From: Gammaproteobacteria bacterium
Lineage (GTDB): Bacteria; Pseudomonadota; Gammaproteobacteria; Pseudomonadales; Azotimanducaceae
Direction of reading: 5' to 3'
NCBI GenBank assembly: GCA_026706385.1
Contig: JAPOYV010000058.1
Location: forward strand, 1-48,863
DNA: 48,863 nucleotides
Of the stretch, positions 22,501 through 34,963 are shown piece after piece; the first letter of the stretch is position 1; the number at the start of each line of letters is the position of its first letter. Under the pieces are notes generated by a model. It had not been told where the DNA came from, made no database searches, and was given only the letters and a program-made list of their open reading frames with translations. The position numbers and the translations under genes are program-made.

Positions 22501-23782
22501 CGCAGGTTGTTTCGCGGGCAGTTGCCCTGCCAACGACCGCGCCGGTCGCGGGCTCGTACCACGTCAACCCGGCGTCGCCGGCGAACCAGCGCGGGTCGAG
22601 ACGCACGCGAACCGGCGCCTCGAAGTAGGCGACCGCGGTTCTGCTCGCCGGAGCGATGGCGGTGTGGACCCGGTCATGGGCGCCCAAGGCTACGTGGTGC
22701 GCATCCGGTTCCAGATCCTGCCACTCGACGGTCTCCAGGATGTTGCGCATGTGCGTGGCGATGGCCGCGGCGCCAGGGCGGCGAATGTCGTCGCGCCAGG
22801 TTTCGAGATTGAGCCAGATCGTCCAAGCGCCGTAGCCTTCTCCGAAGCCGCCGTTCAGACGCGCGGCCCAATAGTGGGCACGGAAGGCCGGGCTCGTGCC
22901 GACTCTATGGATGCGGAAAACGCCGCCGTTCTTGTCGTGCTCATACCATGTCTCGCACAGGAACGTAGGCTTCGCGGGGGTTCGGCCGTAGTCCGCCCTG
23001 ATGCGCTCGAGCATGTTGGAAACGCTGCCGCGGTCCTGGACCGAGTTGAAGTCCAACTCCTCAAGGAGATGGGCGGCACTGCTGCGCCCTGAACGCGGGT
23101 GCATGGTGACCAACTGGGTGATGCCGGCGTCGCGCAATCCCCGGTGCAGGGCGCGGTACTTGGCCACGCTGACGCGGGCCTCATCGCCTCCGAGCACCCA
23201 GATCACGTTGGCCTTCCTGCGGTAGCGCGTGCCCAGCGTCTTGCCGATGGCGTAGTGCGCGTCTGCTGAGAACGAGCGGCTGAAATTGCTCGCCCAGAGG
23301 GGGATGAAGTACGCGGCCATGTCCTTGGCCGCAAGGTAGTCCAGCACCTGGTCGACGTGCCGCCAATAGGCATCGTTCGGTCTGTCGAAGCGGACTTCGC
23401 CGTTGTTTCGCGGCGCCCGGCCTTGTGCGTTGAAGAAAGGCACGTCGCCATTGGCGTTGACGCGGGCCTGGCCTTGCTCGCCTTCGAAGTCCCAGCGGGC
23501 GGCCCGGTCATCGAAAGACCAGGGGGTGGCGACGAGTTGCACCGCCGTGAAGCCTTGGTCGGCGCGGATGTCGATGTACTCCTTGGTGTCCGGCAAGTCC
23601 AGCGAGGCGAGTAGCTGCCACGGGGTGTCGGCCACGTAGTAGAACGGTGTCCCGTCCGCCCAGACCAGGTGGCGACCGTTGTCGCTGACCTCGAGCGGGC
23701 CGTTGAACGTCGTGCAGGCGGTCAACGAGGCCATGGCCGCCACGCACAGTACCGCACGGATTCGCCGCACGTCGCTGCTCAC
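22451..23782 (-). CDS. Apiosidase-like (DUF4038) lipoprotein
   Basis: The 443-residue protein starts at GTG 23782 with a lipoprotein signal ending in SLTAC (Cys23). It has the DUF4038 pattern: YYVADTPWQLLASLD, KEYIDIRADQGFTAVQLVATPW, VDQVLDYLAAKDMAAYFIPLWAS and NVIWVLGGDE, which is a TIM barrel seen in glycoside hydrolases. A small beta-rich C-terminal domain (about 355-443, like the putative collagen-binding module) follows. It probably acts on a polysaccharide outside the inner membrane. Its GTG overlaps the stop of the LLM oxidoreductase (GTGA). Confidence 0.82.
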   Translation of the reverse strand: MSSDVRRIRAVLCVAAMASLTACTTFNGPLEVSDNGRHLVWADGTPFYYVADTPWQLLASLDLPDTKEYIDIRADQGFTAVQLVATPWSFDDRAARWDFEGEQGQARVNANGDVPFFNAQGRAPRNNGEVRFDRPNDAYWRHVDQVLDYLAAKDMAAYFIPLWASNFSRSFSADAHYAIGKTLGTRYRRKANVIWVLGGDEARVSVAKYRALHRGLRDAGITQLVTMHPRSGRSSAAHLLEELDFNSVQDRGSVSNMLERIRADYGRTPAKPTFLCETWYEHDKNGGVFRIHRVGTSPAFRAHYWAARLNGGFGEGYGAWTIWLNLETWRDDIRRPGAAAIATHMRNILETVEWQDLEPDAHHVALGAHDRVHTAIAPASRTAVAYFEAPVRVRLDPRWFAGDAGLTWYEPATGAVVGRATARETTCVKPPTAADAVLVMRPR

Positions 23783-24723
23783 TGGAATGCGGGTAGGACT
23801 TCCTCCGCGAACAACTGCGCAGGCTCCAGCGTGTCCTTGCCGAAGAACTCCATGATGAACATCGTGCAGCCGAGGTCGATGTGCTTCTGGATCTGCTCGG
23901 CGCACCGCTCGGGCGTTCCCGTGATGGCGAGGGGGCCTTTCGGGTCGCCCATGTGACCGCCGAAGATCTTCTCGGCCCGATCCGCCATCGGACCGGCGCT
24001 CTCCGCATTTGGAGCCACCGTGACGAGACACTGCTGACTCGCCGTGATGCTCGCCGGATCGCGGTCGGCGGCATCGCAGTGGCGTTTGAGCACATCGAGC
24101 TTGTGCGCCAGGGCCGCCTGCTGGCCAGCGAGGTTGTTCCAGATGTCCGCCTCGCGGGCGACGATCTTCAGCGTCACTTGTTCGCCGGCCCCGCCGATGA
24201 GTATCGGCACGCGCCGTGGCGGCTTCGGTTGGCAGACCACGTTGTCCGCATGGACGTAGTCGCCGTCGTAGGACACTTCGGTCTCGTCGCCCCACATGCG
24301 CTTGAGCAGCGCGACCGTTTCGGCAAGCTGCTTGAGCCGCTCTCCAGTGCCGAGGAAGGGCATACCGAAGTCCGTGAATTCACGCGGCATCCAGCCGCCA
24401 CCGAGGCCCGCGATCACGCGACCACCGGCGATGTTGTCGACCGTTGCGATGACCTTTCCAAGGTGCGCCGGGTTGCGCATGCCCACCGGCGTCACGAGAG
24501 TGCCGATTTCGACCCGCTCGGTGATGGCCGCGACCGCCGAGATCATCGACCAGGCTTCCAGGATCGGCAATTGCGGGGATTGCGGGCCGTATAGGTGGTC
24601 GCATACCCACAGCGAGTCGTAGCCCATCGCTTCGAATCCGCTCGCCGCCTGGGCGGCAGCGACCCAGGGCCGCTTGATCTGGGGCAAGGTGACGCCGAAG
24701 TGGGGTTTGCGGTCAGGGCTCAT
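23779..24723 (-). CDS. LLM-class (luciferase-like, F420/FMN) oxidoreductase
   Basis: The 314-residue TIM-barrel protein has FGVTLPQI, AMGYDSLWVCDHLYG, GTLVTPVGMRNPAHLGKVIATVDNIAGGRVIAGLGGGW and VPILIGGAGE, the hallmarks of the F420-dependent LLM family (probable F420-dependent oxidoreductases). Either F420 or FMN could be the cofactor; sequence alone does not decide. It is divergent from the PAL-like gene with a 65-nt gap and translationally coupled to the downstream lipoprotein gene. Confidence 0.88.
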   Translation of the reverse strand: MSPDRKPHFGVTLPQIKRPWVAAAQAASGFEAMGYDSLWVCDHLYGPQSPQLPILEAWSMISAVAAITERVEIGTLVTPVGMRNPAHLGKVIATVDNIAGGRVIAGLGGGWMPREFTDFGMPFLGTGERLKQLAETVALLKRMWGDETEVSYDGDYVHADNVVCQPKPPRRVPILIGGAGEQVTLKIVAREADIWNNLAGQQAALAHKLDVLKRHCDAADRDPASITASQQCLVTVAPNAESAGPMADRAEKIFGGHMGDPKGPLAITGTPERCAEQIQKHIDLGCTMFIMEFFGKDTLEPAQLFAEEVLPAFQ

Positions 24724-24788
24724 GGTTGTCTCCTTAGATTGTGCCGCAAGCGTATCATTGCCGCGGATCGTCCTTGCGGAGCTTGCTG

Positions 24789-25757
24789 GTGGCGCGCATC
24801 GAATTCGAAGTGATCGAGGGGTGGGAGAAGCTCCCCGAGGGCTGGAGCTTCGTCGAGGTGGCGGGCGTTGCCACGGACTCGAACGACCGGGTCTACGCGT
24901 TCAACCGCGGCGAGCACCCGGTGATCGTGTTCGACGCCGACGGCAACTTCCTCGACGCCTGGGGCGAGGGCGTCTTCACCAACGCCCACGGCATCTACAT
25001 CGGCCCGGACGATCGCATCTACTTGGCCGACAATTTCGACCACACGGTACGGATATTCACGCCGGATGGCGAACTCAAGCAGACCCTAGGCGAGAAGGAC
25101 CGGCCGGCGGATACGGGGTTCGTACCCGGTAAGACGCCGGTGCAGTTTGGCGGCGGGCCCTTTAATCGCGTCACCAATGTGGCCCTGTCGAGTACGGGCG
25201 AGTTGTACGTGGCCGACGGGTACGGCAACGCACGCGTGCACAAGTTCGGCAGCGACGGCGGGCACCAGTTCTCTTGGGGCGAACCGGGCAGGGGGCCGGG
25301 CGAGTTCCGGCTTCCGCATGCGATCGCCGTGGACCGCGACGACACGGTCTACGTCGCCGACCGCGAGAATTCCCGGATCCAGGTCTTCAAGCCCAACGGC
25401 GACTACCTCCGGGAATGGACGCACGTCAGCCGCCCTGACGACCTGTTCATCGACGGCGACGACGTCCTCTACGTCGCGGAACTCGGCGAGATCGCCGGTC
25501 GTGATCCCGATGTCGAGATCCTCCCGCACACGCCGCACGCTCGCGTCAGCCTGCTCGATCTCGACGGCGAGGTGATCCATCGTTTCGGCGGCGACGACCC
25601 GGTCCGGCCGGGCAATTTCTTCGCGCCGCACGGGATTTGGGCGGACTCCCGGGGCGATCTGTACGTCGCGGAGGTGATTGTCAGCGCGGGCGGCAACCGA
25701 GGCCTTGTGCCGCTCGATTGCCATTCGCTGCAGAAGTTCGCGCGGATCCGCGGCTAG
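24789..25757 (+). CDS. NHL six-bladed propeller, peptidyl-hydroxyglycine amidating lyase (PAL)-like
   Basis: The 322-residue protein is a chain of NHL blades with no signal peptide. It keeps each residue known to matter in animal PAL: the Arg in FNRGEH (R40; rat R533), zinc-type His in NAHGIYI (H67), LPHAIAV (H177) and APHGIWA (H281), and the Tyr in DGYGNARV (Y145; rat Y654). The stretch YVADRENSRIQVF is almost identical in style to the PAL blade. PAL cleaves peptidyl-alpha-hydroxyglycine to a peptide amide and glyoxylate. Start GTG 24789 has GGAG 7 nt upstream. The next gene begins immediately after its stop. Activity is inferred, not shown. Confidence 0.85.
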   Translation: MARIEFEVIEGWEKLPEGWSFVEVAGVATDSNDRVYAFNRGEHPVIVFDADGNFLDAWGEGVFTNAHGIYIGPDDRIYLADNFDHTVRIFTPDGELKQTLGEKDRPADTGFVPGKTPVQFGGGPFNRVTNVALSSTGELYVADGYGNARVHKFGSDGGHQFSWGEPGRGPGEFRLPHAIAVDRDDTVYVADRENSRIQVFKPNGDYLREWTHVSRPDDLFIDGDDVLYVAELGEIAGRDPDVEILPHTPHARVSLLDLDGEVIHRFGGDDPVRPGNFFAPHGIWADSRGDLYVAEVIVSAGGNRGLVPLDCHSLQKFARIRG

Positions 25758-26531
25758 GTGGGCTCATCGAGGGGGGCGGCCCTCGCGGGCGCCTTCTTGT
25801 GTCTCGCAGCCTGCATCGCGCCCGTGGCGCGTGCGGACGACCCGCCATCGCGACTGTCCGTCAAGGTGTACCGGGTGCTTGCCCACGACCCCGAGGCGTT
25901 CACGCAAGGCCTGCTTTGGTTCGACGGCAAGCTCTTCGAGAGCACCGGTCGCCGGGGGCGATCCGAGCTTCGCCAACTGGACCCCGCTTCCGGGCGCGTC
26001 GAACGGCGCGTACCGATCTCGCGGATGCACTTCGGGGAGGGGCTGGCGCTTGCCGGTGACCGGCTCGTCATGCTGACCTGGCATGCGGAGCGCGCCTACG
26101 TGTTCAGCGTGGGCGACTTCTCGCGCTTGGGCTTCAAGTCGTACCGGGGCGAGGGCTGGGGACTGTGCCACGACGGAACGCGGTTCGTCATGAGCGACGG
26201 TTCGAGCACACTTACCCTTCGCGAGACCGGCTCCTTTGCCGTTGCCGGTTCCATCGCGGTAACCGCCTCCGGCCGGCCCGTCGCGGGCCTCAACGAGTTG
26301 GAGTGCGCGGCAGGCGCGGTCTACGCGAACGTCTTCGGACAGGACTTCCTCGTGCGCATCGATCCGGTCACCGGGCAGGTGACCGCGTGGATCGACGCGT
26401 CGGGACTGCTCGATGCCGACGAAGCAGCCGACGCCGATGTCTTGAACGGCATCGCTTTCGACCCGGAAGCCGAGCGCTTCTACTTGACGGGGAAACTGTG
26501 GCCGCGGATGTTCGAGGTGACCTTCGAGTGA
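25758..26531 (+). CDS. Glutaminyl-peptide cyclotransferase (plant/bacterial-type propeller)
   Basis: This family converts N-terminal Gln to pyroglutamate. The 257-residue product has an export signal (hydrophobic 8-23; either LAAC as a lipobox or cleavage after VARA) and the family motifs AFTQGLLWFDGKLFESTGRRG, GEGLAL, GWGLCHDG, VAGLNELE and VLNGIAFDPEAERFYLTGKLWP. It should act in the periplasm. The GTG start is adjacent to the PAL-like stop, and its own stop overlaps the next start (GTGA), so all three genes form one unit. Confidence 0.9.
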   Translation: MGSSRGAALAGAFLCLAACIAPVARADDPPSRLSVKVYRVLAHDPEAFTQGLLWFDGKLFESTGRRGRSELRQLDPASGRVERRVPISRMHFGEGLALAGDRLVMLTWHAERAYVFSVGDFSRLGFKSYRGEGWGLCHDGTRFVMSDGSSTLTLRETGSFAVAGSIAVTASGRPVAGLNELECAAGAVYANVFGQDFLVRIDPVTGQVTAWIDASGLLDADEAADADVLNGIAFDPEAERFYLTGKLWPRMFEVTFE

Positions 26532-27508
26532 GCGCGTCGCCGGGCCGCGACGCGATGGAGGTCGAAGAAGCGCGGCTGCCGCGCGTACCGTCCACCTTGC
26601 AGAACCGCTACGACGAGGTCGTAGCTCACTGTGACGGTGCGCGCCTATGGGCGCACGCCGTGGAGGACGTGCAGGGCGGCCACCTCGACGACCGGCCGTT
26701 GTACTGGGCGCGCTTGAAGTTGCGGCGGCTGCTGCGTCGTGGCGGTGGACAGGGCGATCTCCCGGAACGCACGGCGCGGGGTTTCGACGGCGATTTCCAA
26801 GGTTCCGAGCCGCGCGTGCTCCTGACCGGTTTCGATCCGTTTCACCTGGATCGCAACATCGACCAGAGCAACCCGTCCGGCTTGGCGGCCCTCGCGCTCG
26901 ACGGCAAGCTGGTCGGTGGCGCGCGGATCCGTACGGCAATCTTCCCGGTGAGCTTCGCGGCCTTCGACGTAGGGATCGTCGAGGAACTGCTGGCGCGGCA
27001 CTTCAAGGCGGGGTTGGCGATGTTGCTGACCGTGAGCATGGGCCGTGACGCGTTCGACCTGGAGCGCTTCCCGGGCCTTCGGCGCTCGGCGCAGACGCCC
27101 GACAACGGCAACATCGCGAGCGGCGGATCGCCGACGGCACCGCAGGTCCCGGCGGGGCTCGAAGGTCCCGAGTTCTTGGAATTCACGCTGCCCGCACGAG
27201 CCATGGCCGCGACGCCGGGGCGCTGGCCGGTTCGCGACAACCGATGGGTAACGACCTTGGAGCGGGGATCCCTGACGCCGGGCTCGCTGGCGGAACTCAA
27301 GGACGACACCGCGGTTGCCGGGTCCGGTGGCGGCTACCTGTCCAACGAAGTCGCGTACCGGGCGCTCAGGCTACGCCAACGACTCGGCGCGACGTTCGCC
27401 GTTGGCCACTTGCACACGCCGCGCGTCGTAGGCTACGACGCGGACGCCGAGAGCGGGATGGTGGGGCAGATTCGGGATCTCGTCGCCGCCGCCATGGCTG
27501 CGAGATGA
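26528..27508 (+). CDS. Pyroglutamyl-peptidase I-like (C15) protein with Ser for the catalytic Cys
   Basis: The 326-residue product has a helical N-terminal extension (about 1-93) followed by a C15-like domain: VLLTGFDPFHLDRNIDQSNPS, FPVSFAAFD, LLTVSMGRDAFDLERF (Glu179) and, at the end, GGYLSNEVAYRALRL then VGHLHTP (His296). In true pyroglutamyl peptidases the residue at Ser272 is the nucleophile Cys (pattern VCN). Typical bacterial enzymes are about 215 residues. It may therefore be a serine variant, a binding protein, or inactive. Start GTG 26528 overlaps the cyclotransferase stop. Confidence 0.78.
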   Translation: MSASPGRDAMEVEEARLPRVPSTLQNRYDEVVAHCDGARLWAHAVEDVQGGHLDDRPLYWARLKLRRLLRRGGGQGDLPERTARGFDGDFQGSEPRVLLTGFDPFHLDRNIDQSNPSGLAALALDGKLVGGARIRTAIFPVSFAAFDVGIVEELLARHFKAGLAMLLTVSMGRDAFDLERFPGLRRSAQTPDNGNIASGGSPTAPQVPAGLEGPEFLEFTLPARAMAATPGRWPVRDNRWVTTLERGSLTPGSLAELKDDTAVAGSGGGYLSNEVAYRALRLRQRLGATFAVGHLHTPRVVGYDADAESGMVGQIRDLVAAAMAAR

Positions 27509-27515
27509 CCGGCCG

Positions 27516-27865
27516 TCAAGCCGCGCCCGGCAGGCGCCGCAGGAAGTTGTCGTAGTCGACGCAGGCGAGCGCATTTCGAAGCGCCTCCCGCCGTGAAAGC
27601 GCGGCGATCCGTTCCGTGATGTCGCAGAGTCGTCCGACGCGGGCATTTCGTGACCTCAGCAGGTTGTCCGGAGAGTAGTCCGGGCGGTCGACGTAGATGA
27701 TCCCGTCGGCCTCGGCGGCAACCAACCGGGCGCCGTGAACGTCCCGCTCCTGCAGGTCGGTCGAGCCGCGATGGGCTTGCCCCGCACCTTGGCGATGTCC
27801 GTCACCACCTCGACGAGCCGGGCGCGGGGCACCTCGTGGTGCGGGCCCACGGCATCGGCGTACAT
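27516..27865 (-). pseudogene. Frameshifted, truncated gene remnant
   Basis: Two minus-strand frames join into one protein-like sequence. The upstream part reads MYADAVGPHHEVPRARLVEVV...VRGKPIAA. After a frame change near 27755-27765 it continues as TDLQERDVHGARLVAAEADGIIYVDRPDYSPDNLL (split here only by the frame change) to ...VDYDNFLRRLPGAA. Neither part alone looks complete and no proper start region is visible upstream. The family was not recognised. A single-base sequencing error could also explain the break. Confidence 0.5.
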
Positions 27866-27949
27866 TGTGGGCGTGACCGGTCAGCGGCGAGCGCCCGAAT
27901 GAAGGTCACTCCCAAGGCCGACTGCGGTCGGATGGTCCCGGACCGGGTT

Positions 27950-29398
27950 TCAGTAACCGGGCGGGGGTAGGAATCCGCCGATCTCGGCGCAGACTTGCTC
28001 CGCGAACGCGATCGTCCGGTGGTCGCGATACGGGGCGCTGACCGCCTGCAGACCGATGGGTAGCCCGTCCGTCGAGGGACCCGTGGGAAACACCGTGCTC
28101 GGCAAGTAGGCGTTCACGACCATGCCGGCCCACAGGAGTTGCTGGAAGTACGGCTGCGCGACCCCGTCGACGTCGATCGTGCGCTCGCCGAACGGTCGGT
28201 GGTCGTGCGGGAACGCGGGCGTCGCCATCTGCGGGCACACGAGGATGTCCCAGTCCTCGAAGAAGCGCGCCCACGCGCGGCGGAGTTTCTCGCGGCGGGT
28301 ATTGGTGCGGATCCACTCCCGATGCCGCATCACGGCCGCGCGGGCAGCCACGGCGTCGCGGGAGACGTCGTCGGGAGCGAGGCCGTCAACGACTTTGAGC
28401 ATCCTGGCTTCCGCCTCATCCGTCATGGCGCCGGTCATGACGGCGTTCAGAAGGGTCTGGTAGTTGCGGTCGGCTGCGACGAGGTCCAAGTCCGGGCGGG
28501 CATCTCGGGAGACGGTGGCCCCGGCCTTTTCCAGGACCTCGCCGATCAAAGCGACGCGCGCGGCAATCTCCTCGGCGACAGGAGCCAACGGATCGGTGGG
28601 CCAAAGCGCGACCCGCAGGTCCGCGAGGCGTTCGAAGTCGGCCGCCGGGAGTTCCAGCCGCCACGCGAGCGCCTCCCGCGGTGCCGGCCCGGCCATGATG
28701 TCCAGTGCGAGGTGCAGGTCGTCGGCGCCGCGCGCCAGCGGGCCGCACACCGCAAGGTCGGCGTCCGGTATGCCTTCCACCAGTTCGTGGCCGGACATGG
28801 GAATGACGGCATAGGTCGGCTTGTGCCCGTAGACGCCGCAGAAGTGGGCAGGATTGCGGATCGACCCGCCGATGTCCGATCCGGCCTCCAGGGCGGTGAA
28901 GCCGGCCGCCAGCGCCGCGGCGCTGCCGCCGGAAGAACCGCCCGGGGTTCTCTCGACGTTCCAGGGATTGCGGGTTGTCCCGTAGATCGGGTTGAAGCTT
29001 TGGAAGTCTGCTAGGTCCACCGGCACGTTGGTCTTGCCGAGGAAGTGCGCTCCGGCCGCACGGAAGCGTTGCACCGCCAGGCCGTCGGCGCGGGCGACGT
29101 TGTCGCGGAACAGCTCGTTGCCCCAGGTCGTATGGGTCCCGCCGATGGCATAGGACTCCTTGATGGTCATGGGGACGCCGTGCAGAGGTCCGAGCGAGGT
29201 CCCCCGCGCAAGCGCACCGTCGGCCTCCCGGGCACGCGTCAGCGCATCGTCGAACGTGCGCACGACCACGGCGTTGATGTCCCCGTCGAGCCGCTCGATC
29301 CGGTCGATGTAGAGTTCTGTCAGTTCGACGGAACTGACCTCTCGGTTGCGGATCTTCGCGGCCAGTTCCAGCGCGGTTTGGTGAGCGAGTTCGGTCAT
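27950..29398 (-). CDS. Amidase-signature family amidase
   Basis: The 482-residue enzyme has the Ser-cisSer-Lys signature: Lys in GVPMTIKESYA, the glycine/serine-rich GGSSGGSAAALAAG, and GSDIGGSIRNPAHFCGVYGHKP. It hydrolyses carboxamides; substrate not predictable. The start ATG overlaps the stop of the nitronate monooxygenase gene (ATGA), so the two are translationally coupled and may handle a nitrogenous compound together. Confidence 0.92.
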   Translation of the reverse strand: MTELAHQTALELAAKIRNREVSSVELTELYIDRIERLDGDINAVVVRTFDDALTRAREADGALARGTSLGPLHGVPMTIKESYAIGGTHTTWGNELFRDNVARADGLAVQRFRAAGAHFLGKTNVPVDLADFQSFNPIYGTTRNPWNVERTPGGSSGGSAAALAAGFTALEAGSDIGGSIRNPAHFCGVYGHKPTYAVIPMSGHELVEGIPDADLAVCGPLARGADDLHLALDIMAGPAPREALAWRLELPAADFERLADLRVALWPTDPLAPVAEEIAARVALIGEVLEKAGATVSRDARPDLDLVAADRNYQTLLNAVMTGAMTDEAEARMLKVVDGLAPDDVSRDAVAARAAVMRHREWIRTNTRREKLRRAWARFFEDWDILVCPQMATPAFPHDHRPFGERTIDVDGVAQPYFQQLLWAGMVVNAYLPSTVFPTGPSTDGLPIGLQAVSAPYRDHRTIAFAEQVCAEIGGFLPPPGY

Positions 29399-30411
29399 CG
29401 GTTGGTCCTCCTGCCTCGTTGCTCGGGCGACGGGTTTGCGCCGTTCAGGTACTGGTTCGCCAGGCGGCCCAGTTCTTGGAAGAACTCTGCGCGCACCTCG
29501 GCGATGATCTCGGCGACCGGTCGCACGGCATCGATGCGTCCGCAAACCTGTCCGCACAGGGCGATGCTGGCTTCCATGTCGCCACCGAAGTAGAGCTCGA
29601 GCGCCGTGCCGAATTCCTGCATGGCGTTGCGCTCGGTGTCGTATTCGAGGCCGCTGGTCTTGTCGGTCCGCAACGCCCGCAGGGCCGGGGACGCGTGGCG
29701 GTTCAGGAAGACGGTGTCGGTTTCCTTGGCCGCGACGATGGCATCCTTCCAGTTGGCGTGTACCGGCGACTCGAGCGCCGACACCATGCGCGTGCCCATC
29801 TGCACGCCCTCCGCCCCCAGGGCGAAGGCAGCCGCCATGGAGGCACCGTCGACGAAGCCCCCCGCGGCGATGATCGGTACGTCGACCTGCGAGCGCACCA
29901 GGGGCAGCAGCACCATGCTCGCCACGTCGCGGGGGTTCTTGAAGCCGCCGCCTTCACCGCCTTCAACCACCAACCCATCCACCCCGCAGGCAACCGCCTT
30001 CTGGGCGGCGGCGAGGCTCGGCACGACGTGGTACACGGTGAGGCCGGCCGCTTTCAGTTGGTCGGTGTAGCGCTCCGGATTACCGGCGGACGTGGTCACG
30101 AACTGGACGCCTTGGTCGATGACGAAGTCCACGATGTTGGGATCGCGCACGAACGCCTGGGCGATGTTGACGCCGAAGGGCTTGTCCGTGAGTTCGCGCA
30201 TGCGCACGATCTCGGCACGGACGGCATCGAGTTCGCCCGACGAGGTCTCGATGATGCCGAGCGCCCCGGCGTCGGATACCGCCGAAGCCAGCTTGGAACG
30301 GGCGATCCAGCCCATCGGGGCTTGAACGATGGGAATCTCCACGCCGAGCGAGCGCGTCACCCGGTTGTCGAAACCTAAGGGTTCGCGCCGCGTGCTACGC
30401 GCTTGGCTCAT
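29395..30411 (-). CDS. Nitronate monooxygenase (2-nitropropane dioxygenase family)
   Basis: The 338-residue FMN-dependent TIM-barrel protein has PIVQAPMGWIARSKLASAVSDAGALGII, GVNIAQAF, a VVEGGEGGG phosphate-type loop and IIAAGGFVDGASMAAAFALGAEGVQMGTRM, the standard NMO motifs. Members oxidise alkyl nitronates or act as enoyl reductases. The chosen ATG gives MSQARSTRRE; the frame is open further upstream without good starts. The gene is divergent from the TonB receptor. Confidence 0.9.
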   Translation of the reverse strand: MSQARSTRREPLGFDNRVTRSLGVEIPIVQAPMGWIARSKLASAVSDAGALGIIETSSGELDAVRAEIVRMRELTDKPFGVNIAQAFVRDPNIVDFVIDQGVQFVTTSAGNPERYTDQLKAAGLTVYHVVPSLAAAQKAVACGVDGLVVEGGEGGGFKNPRDVASMVLLPLVRSQVDVPIIAAGGFVDGASMAAAFALGAEGVQMGTRMVSALESPVHANWKDAIVAAKETDTVFLNRHASPALRALRTDKTSGLEYDTERNAMQEFGTALELYFGGDMEASIALCGQVCGRIDAVRPVAEIIAEVRAEFFQELGRLANQYLNGANPSPEQRGRRTNR

Positions 30412-30501
30412 GGCTGCGTCAGCCGACCAGTTTGGTGCCGGCATTGTGGCACGAAGGCGACCGCCAATTGTCAGGATGTGTCGATTTGTTACAGAAGACG
30501 C

Positions 30502-30530
30502 TTGACACGCCTTCGGCGTAGGCGTAAACC
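30502..30530 (+). promoter_or_regulatory. Candidate promoter of the TonB-dependent receptor
   Basis: A perfect -35 hexamer TTGACA at 30502-30507 is followed, after 17 nt, by TAAACC at 30525-30530, a weak -10. It lies about 115 nt before the receptor start in an otherwise non-coding 235-nt gap. The long leader between it and the start could carry post-transcriptional control, but no known riboswitch was recognised. Confidence 0.4.
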
Positions 30531-30646
30531 GTATCCCAAAGGCGAAAGCCGCTTCGGTGCTTGTCGCCCAAGCCGTCGGCGCGGCCCGGAAGGATCTGGG
30601 CAAAGAGTGTGTCGATGGGAGGAAAGGACCACTAGGGGAGAAACCT

Positions 30647-33600
30647 ATGGATCGAGGCTTGAAACGAGCCATGCTATGGGCGTTGGCGTTCGCGCTGGCG
30701 CTTTTTGCCCTCAACCTCCGAGCTGCCGACGAGGACGAGGATGAGGAAGACGAGGAGGACGACGAGGAAGTCGAGGAGATGATCGTCACCGGATCCTATA
30801 TCCGGCGTACGAACTTCGACCTGCCCTCGCCCAAGAACGTCATCGACAACATCGACATCGAGATGTCCGGCAACGCCGAACTCGGTGACGTGATCTTCGA
30901 CCAGTCGTTCCAGCTTGGCGTCAATGCCAACGCGGCACCGTTCGAAGGCATCTGCTGCTCGGAGAGCGGGCAGGACGGCCTCTCGAACGACGAGTGGGGC
31001 GGGCAGGCCGACAACCAGCAGGGGAACCAGGGCACCGAGGTCTGGGCCAACCTGCGCGGTCTCGGCACCCGGGCCACCATGACCATGATGGATGGCCACC
31101 GGCTGCCGGCGGACACAACGCCGCGGGGCGAACGCGCCGGGGTAGACGTCAGCGGCATGTACCCAGCGATCGCCATCGGCCGGGTCGACACGATCCTCGA
31201 CGGCGCATCGGCGTTGTATGGGGCTGAAGCGGTGAGCGGCGTCATCAACATGGTGCCGCGAAAGGACTTCGAGGGCCTCACGATCAGCCTCGATTGGGGC
31301 TCGCCACTGGAGAACGGCGCGCCGCAGACCGGTTTCAGCATGCTTGGCGGCGTGCAGGGCGACCGGGGTCGGGCGATCTTCGCTATCGAGCTGCGCGACA
31401 CCGAGCGCATGCGGTTCACCGACCGGCCTCGCTACATCATCGATACCAAGAACCCGTGGGCGCGTCACACGACGGTCAGCAACGACTACTACACCTGGGG
31501 TCAATGGTCCCGGTTCTGGAAGGACGCGTACGACGCTGGCGGGAACCCCGCCAGCAGAATCGCCGTGCCGATCCGTTCGCCGCTCGGCGAACTCATGACG
31601 CCGGACGAACGATCAGCGCTTTCCGGCCTGGGCTACACGAGCCAGTCGAACTGGCGTTCGTGGTCCGACAACATCGGCCAGGTCTCTACCGGCGTTTCCC
31701 AGGATCCGACCTGCGCTTACGGTTTTGGCGCTGGTCACGACAACGAGGGACCGCCGCCGATCAGCCCGTACGGTCCGTTCTTCGACTGGGCTCACGGTTC
31801 CGACGCCCACGACAGCCAACGCAATGCTTGGCAGGCCGAGTTCGGCGACCATTGGGGTACCGACTTCCGCAACGTCTACGGCGAGACCTACACGTACAAC
31901 GATGTCTCGAAGCACGGCAACTTCCTGAACGGGTACAACGACCCCAACGATCCGGCGTACCACTGCCGGATGGTCGACTCCGACTACCAGGACATCCAGG
32001 CCGAGAGCGAACGGCAGAAGGGCTTCGGCTACTTCGAGTACGAGTTCAACGACTACGTCACCGTGCGTGGCGAGTTTGTGTCGAGTTCCGTCGACTACAA
32101 CACGCGCCTCTACGCGCCCGGCTTCAACGACTTCGATTCAAGCAGCGGTGGTCTGGCCAACGACCGCATGGGAATCGCCGTCGGCTCGAACCCGGGCAAC
32201 CCGTTCCGGGCCTTCGCGGACGGTTCGACGATCAACGACTACTACGACGGCGTGAACGGTGTGTGGGACCCGACCGACAACAACACCTTCCTGCCGCCGG
32301 GCGACGACCAGTACTGGCCGGGCGTATCGCCGGACATTTGGCCGGGCGGGTCGAACACCTGGACGGCCAGGCCGACGCGCCAGCTCGACTTCAGGGACTT
32401 GAACGGCAACGGTCGCTACGACTACCTGGAAGAGCCCGGCGAGTTGCTGGTCTTCGCGCAGGACCTCGACGGCGACGGCATCCCCGACCGCGACTGGGAC
32501 GGTGACGGCATCGCCGATGCCAATGTCCAGCGCGACCCGCGCGCCCGCGTGGTGCTGATGGGCATGGGCGACGCGGACGGCGATGGCCTTCCGGACCGGT
32601 TCGACCCAGACGCTGGCGGCATCCCGTTCTACGAGGACGTCCGCTTCCAGGAGCGACGCCTGTTCGCCTTCCCGAAACACCCGCGCAACAACAATCTCGA
32701 CTGGGCGGAGAACGACGGCATCCTGCATTTCCTGCGGCGCACCAGCCGCCAGGACATCCGCCTTCGCCTAGGTACGGAGATCCGCATCCCGGAGACGGAC
32801 TGGGTCATCGACGCCGATTGGATCTGGGCGCAGGGCGTACGGGAGACGAACCAGTTCCAGGAAATCACCTCCGAGATGGTGCAGGCCCTGCGCTGCAATG
32901 CCGGGCCGAACCAGAACTCCTGCTGGAACCCGTTCGGTTCGACCTACCTGATGATCGACGAGAACGGCCACCCCATCGGGGATCCCAGCAACAAATTCCC
33001 GGCGCCGAACGATCCGGGCTGGACGCCACCGGACCACGAGTTCGTGAACACCGAGGATGAGCATCGTCTCGCCGGCAACGTGATGGCGTACAACATCCAA
33101 GATCTCGGCATGACCATCGTCGATCTGGTGGGGGCCAATAGCAACCTGTTCGACCTCTGGTACAACGACCAGCCGGTCGGCTTGGCCATCGGCATGCACT
33201 GGCGTTTGGAGGAGGAGGAGTACCGTCCTCACGCGTTGGCGCAGGCAGCCGTAGGCGGCAACAAGTTCGCCCTACGCAAGAGCGAGCAGGAGTCGCAGGC
33301 AGTGTTTGCCGAGGTGTCTCTACCGCTTATCTCGCACGAGACCTGGGGTGATATGGAAGCTCAGGTCGCCGTGCGCTACAGCGAGATCACGGCGGCAGGC
33401 ATCTACGGGCAGCCGGGGTCGTCCAAGTTCACGACGACGATTCCGAAACTGGCCGTCCGCTATGCTCCGACGGACTACTTGGCACTGCGCGGGAGTATCA
33501 CGCAAGGGTTCGTGACGCCTGGCCTGTACGCCCTGTTCGGCGATGCGGGCATCGAGACGGTGGGGACCGTTCGCGACTACGTCTGCGACTATCTGCCCGA

Positions 33601-34963
33601 TATCCAGGACTGCATCGATGCCGGCGCCAGCAAAGGCGGCGGCACGCCCAATGTTCGGACCCGTTCCGGCAGCAGTCCCGACTTGGATCCTGAGACGTCG
33701 GACCTCTACAACCTAGGCTTCTCGCTCAAGTTCCTAGACGGCGACCTCGTATTCGACGTCGACTACACCAGCGTCGAGTTCCGCGGCCAGATCGAACCGA
33801 CCGGCCCCGGCGACCAGGTGGGCTTGAACGAAAACGGCTTCACGGCATACGTGCAGGCTGCCTGCCCGGGCACTCTTGTGGATTGGGACAACGACCAAAA
33901 GCACAACGATCCCGGCGCAGCCGACCGGGCGGCGCTGACCCAGCAGGAGTTCCGAGACTCCGAGTGGACGAACCCGCAGGATCTGGAATGCCGGCGCAAC
34001 GCCGCGCTCAGTTGGCTGCAAAGCGGCGCCAACGCGGGCCAAGGCGAATTGAGCTTCGCTGGCGGCAGGCTCGACCGCGGCAAGGACGGCAGTCCGATCA
34101 TCCTCGACTACGTTGAGGGTGCTTGGACCGCGCAAGGCCAACGCGTCGCGGAGACGATGATCTACGGCGTGCGCTACGCGTTCGAGTTGCCGGAAAACCG
34201 GTTCACGAACTGGATCGGCGACGACAAGGGTGCCTTCCTGTTCACGTTGAGCGCCACGCAGTTCCTGACGCAGGAGTTAACGAAGTTCAAGAGCTTCGGC
34301 TGCGACGACGCTGGTCGTAACCAGGGTGGCTTCTGCATTCGCGACAACGTGCTCGCCGGCATCACGGTGGACGGCGTGGGCAACCGCAACTCGCAGTACT
34401 TCTCGCCGCCCAACATGCACCTGATGGCCGACCTGCCGCCGACGCCGGAATGGCGTGCGCAGGCGAGCCTGCGGTGGTTCAGGGGCCCGCACACGGCCCA
34501 GTTGATGGTCCGCTGGCATGACATGGTGAAAAACATCAACGTTGCCTGGGACGCCATGAAGGAGCGCGAGCGACTCGACCCAAGGACGGTGATTGCGAGT
34601 TGGACCTGGGACTGCTGTGGCGAGCGGAGCTCCTATCCGCACCACGTACCGTATCGCGGCTACGAGGAAGTCACGATTCCGGGTACCGACATCGTGAAGC
34701 GGATTCCCAATGAGCGGCAGTCGCAACGCTGTGCATTCCAGCCCTGGCCGGTGTGCAAGATCGACTCGCGCCACTATTGGGACGTGAGCTACAGCTATCG
34801 CCGCCCGGACTTCATGGGCTTCAGCTCGGTGATGGTGAACGCGGCGGTCCGCAACATCTTCGACACCTATCCCGACCCGATTACCCAGTTCTCGGCCCAC
34901 GAGCCGTACCTGGACAACATCATGGGTCGAACGGTGTTGATCAGGCTGAATCTGTCGCTCTAG
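30647..34963 (+). CDS. Very large TonB-dependent receptor
   Basis: The 1438-residue outer-membrane protein has a signal peptide (1-26), an acidic run (residues 28-44, almost all Asp/Glu), a TonB-box region EEMIVTGSYIRR, a plug domain (WANLRGLGTRATMTMMDGHRLP, DGASALYGAEAVSGVINMVP) and a long beta-barrel ending VLIRLNLSL. Ordinary receptors are 700-1000 residues; the excess is in extracellular loops. One loop region (about 605-650) is rich in DxDGDG calcium-type motifs. ATG 30647 has AGGGGAG upstream. The ligand is unknown; a deacylase for N-acyl-amino acids lies downstream after a terminator. Confidence 0.9.
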   Translation: MDRGLKRAMLWALAFALALFALNLRAADEDEDEEDEEDDEEVEEMIVTGSYIRRTNFDLPSPKNVIDNIDIEMSGNAELGDVIFDQSFQLGVNANAAPFEGICCSESGQDGLSNDEWGGQADNQQGNQGTEVWANLRGLGTRATMTMMDGHRLPADTTPRGERAGVDVSGMYPAIAIGRVDTILDGASALYGAEAVSGVINMVPRKDFEGLTISLDWGSPLENGAPQTGFSMLGGVQGDRGRAIFAIELRDTERMRFTDRPRYIIDTKNPWARHTTVSNDYYTWGQWSRFWKDAYDAGGNPASRIAVPIRSPLGELMTPDERSALSGLGYTSQSNWRSWSDNIGQVSTGVSQDPTCAYGFGAGHDNEGPPPISPYGPFFDWAHGSDAHDSQRNAWQAEFGDHWGTDFRNVYGETYTYNDVSKHGNFLNGYNDPNDPAYHCRMVDSDYQDIQAESERQKGFGYFEYEFNDYVTVRGEFVSSSVDYNTRLYAPGFNDFDSSSGGLANDRMGIAVGSNPGNPFRAFADGSTINDYYDGVNGVWDPTDNNTFLPPGDDQYWPGVSPDIWPGGSNTWTARPTRQLDFRDLNGNGRYDYLEEPGELLVFAQDLDGDGIPDRDWDGDGIADANVQRDPRARVVLMGMGDADGDGLPDRFDPDAGGIPFYEDVRFQERRLFAFPKHPRNNNLDWAENDGILHFLRRTSRQDIRLRLGTEIRIPETDWVIDADWIWAQGVRETNQFQEITSEMVQALRCNAGPNQNSCWNPFGSTYLMIDENGHPIGDPSNKFPAPNDPGWTPPDHEFVNTEDEHRLAGNVMAYNIQDLGMTIVDLVGANSNLFDLWYNDQPVGLAIGMHWRLEEEEYRPHALAQAAVGGNKFALRKSEQESQAVFAEVSLPLISHETWGDMEAQVAVRYSEITAAGIYGQPGSSKFTTTIPKLAVRYAPTDYLALRGSITQGFVTPGLYALFGDAGIETVGTVRDYVCDYLPDIQDCIDAGASKGGGTPNVRTRSGSSPDLDPETSDLYNLGFSLKFLDGDLVFDVDYTSVEFRGQIEPTGPGDQVGLNENGFTAYVQAACPGTLVDWDNDQKHNDPGAADRAALTQQEFRDSEWTNPQDLECRRNAALSWLQSGANAGQGELSFAGGRLDRGKDGSPIILDYVEGAWTAQGQRVAETMIYGVRYAFELPENRFTNWIGDDKGAFLFTLSATQFLTQELTKFKSFGCDDAGRNQGGFCIRDNVLAGITVDGVGNRNSQYFSPPNMHLMADLPPTPEWRAQASLRWFRGPHTAQLMVRWHDMVKNINVAWDAMKERERLDPRTVIASWTWDCCGERSSYPHHVPYRGYEEVTIPGTDIVKRIPNERQSQRCAFQPWPVCKIDSRHYWDVSYSYRRPDFMGFSSVMVNAAVRNIFDTYPDPITQFSAHEPYLDNIMGRTVLIRLNLSL

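Follow-up and report, generated by a model that had tools for sequence, protein, structure and literature searches.

The closest described counterpart of the lyase-like protein studied here is the animal peptide-amidating lyase PAL, known from the rat as the lyase domain of PAM (PDB 3fvz, EC 4.3.2.5) and folded as a six-bladed NHL propeller. An analogous reaction is that of MgdL, an N-(hydroxymethyl)guanidine lyase that speeds the decay of a hydroxylated N-C intermediate; its authors name PAL as the only similar activity known to them and describe PAL and MgdL as having no sequence homology (PMC12508155). Of two further papers, one deals with a HEXXH enzyme that cleaves peptides oxidatively and cites PAL as a precedent (PMC12636437), and the other compares NHLRC2 structurally with PAL, NHLRC2 homologues having no conserved neighbours in seven bacterial genomes (PMC6107167). 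In the open-licence literature we found no work on the function of PAL-like proteins from bacteria. The name PAL is already attached to the bacterial family in database annotation: plasmid homologues of the protein described below are labelled 'alpha-amidating lyase' by similarity.

The window, by which we mean the whole analysed stretch of 48,863 nucleotides, is one contig (C119) of a 5.1 Mb genome in 134 contigs. Its nearest named relatives, as judged by the PAL-like protein P0001, are metagenome assemblies of Gammaproteobacteria/Pseudomonadales, and from the isolate names we would guess that they are sponge symbionts. An initial annotation had described three plus-strand genes for a PAL-like lyase, a glutaminyl cyclotransferase and a pyroglutamyl-peptidase-like protein, joined without a gap at 25757/25758 and by a four-base GTGA overlap at 26528-26531. 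Frames and coordinates were confirmed (Table 1), and the assignments to enzyme families hold, with matches to NHL, Glu_cyclase_2 and Peptidase_C15, respectively. A scan of 24500-28000 yielded no sigma-70-like promoter; the one terminator-like site in this interval lies within the P0001 gene, and this count is below the shuffled mean. The divergent arrangement of the LLM gene and the PAL gene recurs in related lineages, and the amidase gene also adjoins the unit at two further loci (L022 and L028); both are possible partners of the PAL unit.

Table 1. Genes at and around the PAL-like locus (window coordinates)
Feature	Position	Strand	Remarks
P0001, PAL-like six-bladed NHL propeller, 322 aa	24789..25757	+	R40, H67, Y145, H177, R192, H281
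P0002, glutaminyl cyclotransferase (PF05096), 257 aa	25758..26531	+	signal peptide by eye
P0003, C15-fold protein, Ser272 replacing catalytic Cys	26528..27508	+	Glu179 and His296 kept; N-terminal extension of ~90 residues
LLM (luciferase-like) oxidoreductase, divergent from PAL	23779..24723	-	Bac_luciferase in orthologue L097; TIGR03560-like, below cut-off
Amidase-signature protein (PF01425), next downstream of the trio	27950..29401	-	candidate partner
Nitronate monooxygenase-type protein	29395-30789	-	PF03060
Long TonB-receptor-like ORF	30557-34963	+	by eye

Relationship of P0001 to the animal lyase

P0001 is a true relative of animal PAL. It matches the Pfam family NHL at 1.5e-24, shares 31% identity with rat PAL in a MAFFT alignment and is paired with it by hhalign at 99.8% (1.2e-29). 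When the PDB was searched with the AlphaFold2 model of P0001 (pLDDT 93.9), Foldseek ranked rat PAL first (E 1.2e-19, TMq 0.76), a likeness of a predicted structure. When solved structures are ranked by sequence score, TRIM-type NHL chains stand above PAL, because their repeats add up. Three MAFFT modes agree in pairing R40, H67, Y145, H177, R192 and H281 of P0001 with R533, H585, Y654, H690, R706 and H786, residues with catalytic roles in rat PAL. All but the R192-R706 pair had been proposed before, together with the expectation that the set is kept in relatives, and both points were borne out: the six positions are invariant in 28 bacterial sequences from several phyla by record title, 27 of them at 49-81% identity to P0001. 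Unlike rat PAL, P0001 carries A279 and G282 at the positions of M784 and D787, which are not conserved; across the 28 sequences they are A, S, V or Q and G, A or C, respectively.

The invariant residue set favours a PAL-type reaction. A propeller that has lost lyase function, or that serves otherwise as a lactonase or a binding scaffold, would fit the two changed positions and the higher sequence scores of the TRIM-type chains. However, the catalytic positions are constant across distant bacteria and PAL is the best fold match of the model, and we consider this explanation unlikely.

The family is wide: among 322 pattern matches 84 were confirmed as relatives and 80 of these relatives kept, and a strong P0001 homologue is present in 12 of 398 genomes scanned within the phylum (own genome included), nine of them from one genus. 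Tandem arrays of PAL-like ORFs were seen at several loci, with five in L150 (4569-10103), four in L151 (4938-9158) and two each in L156, L169 and L171. One PAL-like gene of the window's genus (L027 8452-9413, genome G008) is matched as two pieces in different frames, a frameshift that is either real or due to assembly. Three records titled Klebsiella pneumoniae or Asaia bogorensis (L126, L143 and L150) are metagenome assemblies whose PAL genes cluster with other lineages, and these records may be mistitled. We considered whether PAL is fused to a further domain in L140 and L153 and rejected this; their long N-terminal extensions do not resemble each other significantly (best E 0.54) and have the appearance of open-frame artefacts.

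The cyclotransferase and C15-fold genes beside the lyase gene

Judged by its sequence, P0002 is a typical glutaminyl cyclotransferase. The Glu_cyclase_2 match (PF05096, 4.8e-85) is full-length, covering profile positions 5-249 of 249, and residues 31-255 match the bacterial enzyme of PDB 3mbr at 5.4e-54. In contrast to 3mbr-type cyclotransferases, the Trp of the ANVW motif is Phe or Tyr in the aligned copies of the genus, G013 excepted. As the initial annotation had remarked, the cyclotransferase has a signal peptide and the lyase has none visible, both judged by eye, so that P0002 appears exported and P0001 cytoplasmic.

The description of the third gene as pyroglutamyl-peptidase-like stands for its fold only. 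The Pfam match of P0003 to Peptidase_C15 covers residues 96-209 (8.6e-12), and C15 peptidases occupy ranks 1-34 of the Foldseek list obtained with its model (pLDDT 93.2). P0003 shares the fold, the Glu and the His of pyroglutamyl peptidase I (PDB 5z48), but it differs in its N-terminal extension and in Ser272, which aligns with the catalytic Cys that defines C15. A Ser occupies this site in 17 of 17 sequences covering it, P0003 included (the alignment comprises 19 sequences, of which L028 and L039 do not reach the site), and again in a second alignment of 15 sequences. Some relatives in other genera, among them L034 and L035, look exported by eye and keep the Ser. This constant exchange makes removal of pyroglutamate by P0003 doubtful, and pyroglutamyl peptidase activity seems unlikely from the sequence. 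A first scan of the genome contigs with P0003 as the query returned no relatives; in the window P0003 was located by tblastn.

We compared 58 genomes, the own genome included. P0001 homologues were found in 21 of them at 1e-30 and in 19 at 1e-130 or better; these 19 'PAL genomes' were used for all co-occurrence counts, leaving out G027 and G032. P0003 homologues occur in 19 and PF05096 in 22 of the 58. Within the genus of the window (G000-G015) PAL is present in 15 of 16 genomes, in 11 of the 16 the next gene downstream of it on that strand is the cyclotransferase gene, and the trio is contiguous in five (G000, G001, G007, G008 and G013). In G012 the cyclotransferase and C15-like genes occur together without PAL, and in G015 and G022 PAL is followed by one intervening gene and then the C15-like gene. 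The order of PAL and cyclotransferase is thus conserved inside the genus, and the full three-gene order in part of it; over 46 lineages the cyclotransferase is close to PAL in one (our own grouping, excluding the fragment L176; gam_g1, gam_g1b and gam_d represent the own genus). The trio is a real but local unit within a PAL family of broad distribution. A further cyclotransferase/C15-like pair, with internal stops and undetermined residues, lies beside an amidase on a 3.4 kb contig (L028, G006:C47).

The two downstream genes may be no more than passengers, co-transcribed with PAL in a single genus, which is compatible with the other readings. Identities within the genus are 81-96% for PAL, compared with mostly 60-65% for P0002 orthologues and mostly 47-60% for P0003 orthologues (83-89% only in G007), and from many genomes of the genus one gene or both are missing. 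Against this stands the co-occurrence of the C15-like gene with PAL (12/19 PAL genomes versus 7/39 others, p 0.0009, relatedness ignored) and its position within 1.5 kb of PAL in three of the 46 lineages, two of them without a cyclotransferase. The cyclotransferase itself is found in 12/19 versus 10/39 genomes (p 0.007, relatedness ignored). We regard the passenger explanation as a possibility of some weight, short of an even chance.

The locus had been read originally as a peptide-end modification unit, in which the PAL-like protein would make C-terminal amides, the cyclotransferase would cap N-termini and the C15 protein would uncap them. The intact PAL residues, the typical cyclotransferase and the gene order within the genus speak for such a unit, as does a weak PHM-type match elsewhere in the genome. 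It was correctly stated that the window holds no PHM-type hydroxylase: a search of the genome, window included, gave a single PF03712 match, which lies on another contig, so that no PHM-like copper enzyme is linked to PAL there. This match is a 710-aa protein (L001 10-2142; G000:C130, ~38.5 kb) with a redoxin domain, a weak similarity to PHM-type copper monooxygenases (27.6 bits) and, by eye, HH and HxH motifs. However, PF03712 does not follow PAL in its occurrence (4/19 PAL genomes versus 5/39 others, p 0.33, relatedness ignored), and we therefore rejected PHM-based peptide amidation as the main reading. The replaced C15 nucleophile, the rarity of the cyclotransferase near PAL, the apparent separation of lyase and cyclotransferase by export of the latter, and the catabolic neighbourhoods of part of the family likewise argue against the cap-and-uncap proposal, which we now hold to be very improbable.

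Gene neighbourhoods and a proposed small-molecule reaction

PAL-like genes of other lineages often lie near genes for the breakdown of small nitrogen compounds. In Binatia loci the order is VOC, PAL and D-2-hydroxyacid dehydrogenase with gaps of ~30 bp. The neighbour in L175 is a dehydrogenase with GhrA as its best NCBIfam model, below cut-off, and in L112-L114, L116 and L117 it is an Ldh_2 protein nearest to AllD, also below the model cut-off. A D-2-hydroxyacid dehydrogenase lies 1.2 kb downstream of PAL in L195, and Amidohydro_2 and BphC-type VOC proteins are encoded nearby in L194. An HpaI-type aldolase gene is found within 410 bp of PAL in four of the 46 lineages, and an LLM gene within 300 bp in six, three of these in the own genus.

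A PAL homologue was present in 19 plasmid records, and candidate catabolic neighbours were seen in four of the five plasmid loci examined. On a Bradyrhizobium plasmid a CHA-type aldolase gene adjoins PAL, and genes for 5-oxoprolinase and hydantoinase/oxoprolinase lie at a greater distance; the Sinorhizobium locus holds Rieske, VanB-type and VOC proteins and two amidohydrolases; and a dihydropyrimidinase is found at the Thioclava locus. On the Mesorhizobium plasmid a divergent 2-hydroxyacid dehydrogenase gene, annotated as such and overlooked by our dehydrogenase seed search, adjoins PAL beside an ectoine cluster. The Priestia plasmid has none of these catabolic neighbours next to PAL. In the alphaproteobacterial-type genus that supplied nine genomes of the phylum scan, which we infer to be Bradyrhizobium, an FMO-type flavoprotein gene ends within ~0.2 kb upstream of PAL in seven of the nine; in L198 and L200 the distance is ~3.4 kb. 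This flavoprotein (~590 aa) is kept across L196-L204, and the other neighbours vary between genomes.

These neighbourhoods are suggestive and not proof, and many PAL loci lack all of the families named. The comparison of near with far neighbours is a weak one: LLM plus VOC genes make up 7/72 of the near neighbours and at least 1/73 of the far ones (p 0.03), and 2-oxo-acid enzymes 6/72 and at least 2/73 (p 0.13); in both comparisons the families were chosen afterwards and the values are uncorrected. The near set comprises 72 of 73 sequences (L101:4-4596 was dropped before alignment) and the far set 73 of 180, sampled with second neighbours included. The far counts are lower bounds since the two Pfam tallies cover 25 of 82 and 25 of 73 families. 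Short-chain dehydrogenases (adh_short_C2) are commoner far than near (5 versus 1). Furthermore, genomes carry 40-80 LLM genes and 11-36 PF02826 matches each, so that chance adjacency to PAL is not rare; LLM adjacency, initially taken as strong evidence, was downgraded for this reason.

The absence of a linked PHM, the apparently cytoplasmic location and the amide-cleaving or 2-oxo-acid neighbours together favour a small-molecule substrate, and the frequent proximity to genes for breakdown of small nitrogen compounds makes cutting of a small molecule probable. Our best explanation, to which we give about an even chance, is that P0001 acts in the cytoplasm as a carbinolamide lyase in the catabolism of small molecules, and that the other two genes became attached to it in one lineage. 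The analysis shows the homology, the predicted fold, the conserved catalytic residues, the gene order, the Ser exchange and the neighbours; lyase activity, metal, substrate class and pathway are what we infer from these. P0001 belongs to a widespread bacterial PAL branch and would most likely be a metal-bound propeller lyase with chemistry as in PAL. From a carbinolamide, an alpha-hydroxy-amide of the form R-CO-NH-CH(OH)-X, it would release an amide by cleavage between N and C, the other product being an aldehyde or 2-oxo acid, for example glyoxylate. The substrate would be a small cytoplasmic molecule of a nitrogen-compound breakdown route as opposed to a secreted peptide. The change of M784 and D787 counts against this explanation, as does the fact that class-B FMOs do not usually hydroxylate a carbon adjacent to nitrogen. 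The neighbouring 2-hydroxyacid dehydrogenases or aldolases of some lineages may take up the 2-oxo product, and amidases or amidohydrolases the amide product; in the window's genus the cyclotransferase and the Ser-variant C15 protein would add a pyroglutamate/glutamine theme.

A special case of this carbinolamide reaction would be the splitting of ureidoglycolate into glyoxylate and urea during the breakdown of purines. Ureidoglycolate carries the same N-CH(OH)-COOH group, the AllD-like dehydrogenase adjoins PAL in L112, the Thioclava locus has its dihydropyrimidinase, and neither the own genome nor eight other f1 genomes searched yielded an AllA match. On the other hand, an AllA-type lyase is already present in two of 13 PAL genomes (G091 and G193), and in the loci inspected PAL had no purine genes next to it. 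A search for allantoicase gave no match in any genome, controls included, and so carries no weight for or against. A role as ureidoglycolate lyase appears distinctly improbable.

The varied oxidising enzymes near PAL could also make up an analogue of the animal amidating system that works without copper, in which an LLM flavin or F420 enzyme, an FMO, a Rieske or a VOC type protein would each be paired with the same PAL-like lyase to split N-acyl-glycine-type or lactam compounds oxidatively, yielding an amide plus a 2-oxo acid. The pyroglutamate theme of the window's genus and of the Bradyrhizobium plasmid with its oxoprolinase genes would fit the opening of a cyclic carbinolamide, for example 2-hydroxy-5-oxoproline (cyclised 2-oxoglutaramate), by an internal PAL reaction. 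We think this oxidase-lyase pairing rather unlikely as a whole.

Meaning for the bacterial PAL-like family

The branch of C15 proteins with Ser for Cys offers a separate and clean test, as either the fold works with a serine or it has become a binder. Dedicated lyases for hydroxylated N-C intermediates seem to be rarely reported, as the MgdL paper indicates (PMC12508155). If the small-molecule carbinolamide lyase reading of P0001 is true, the database name 'alpha-amidating lyase' would mislead for a family that spans several bacterial phyla. The neuropeptide enzyme of animals would then have catabolic bacterial cousins that show the use of its fold without PHM.
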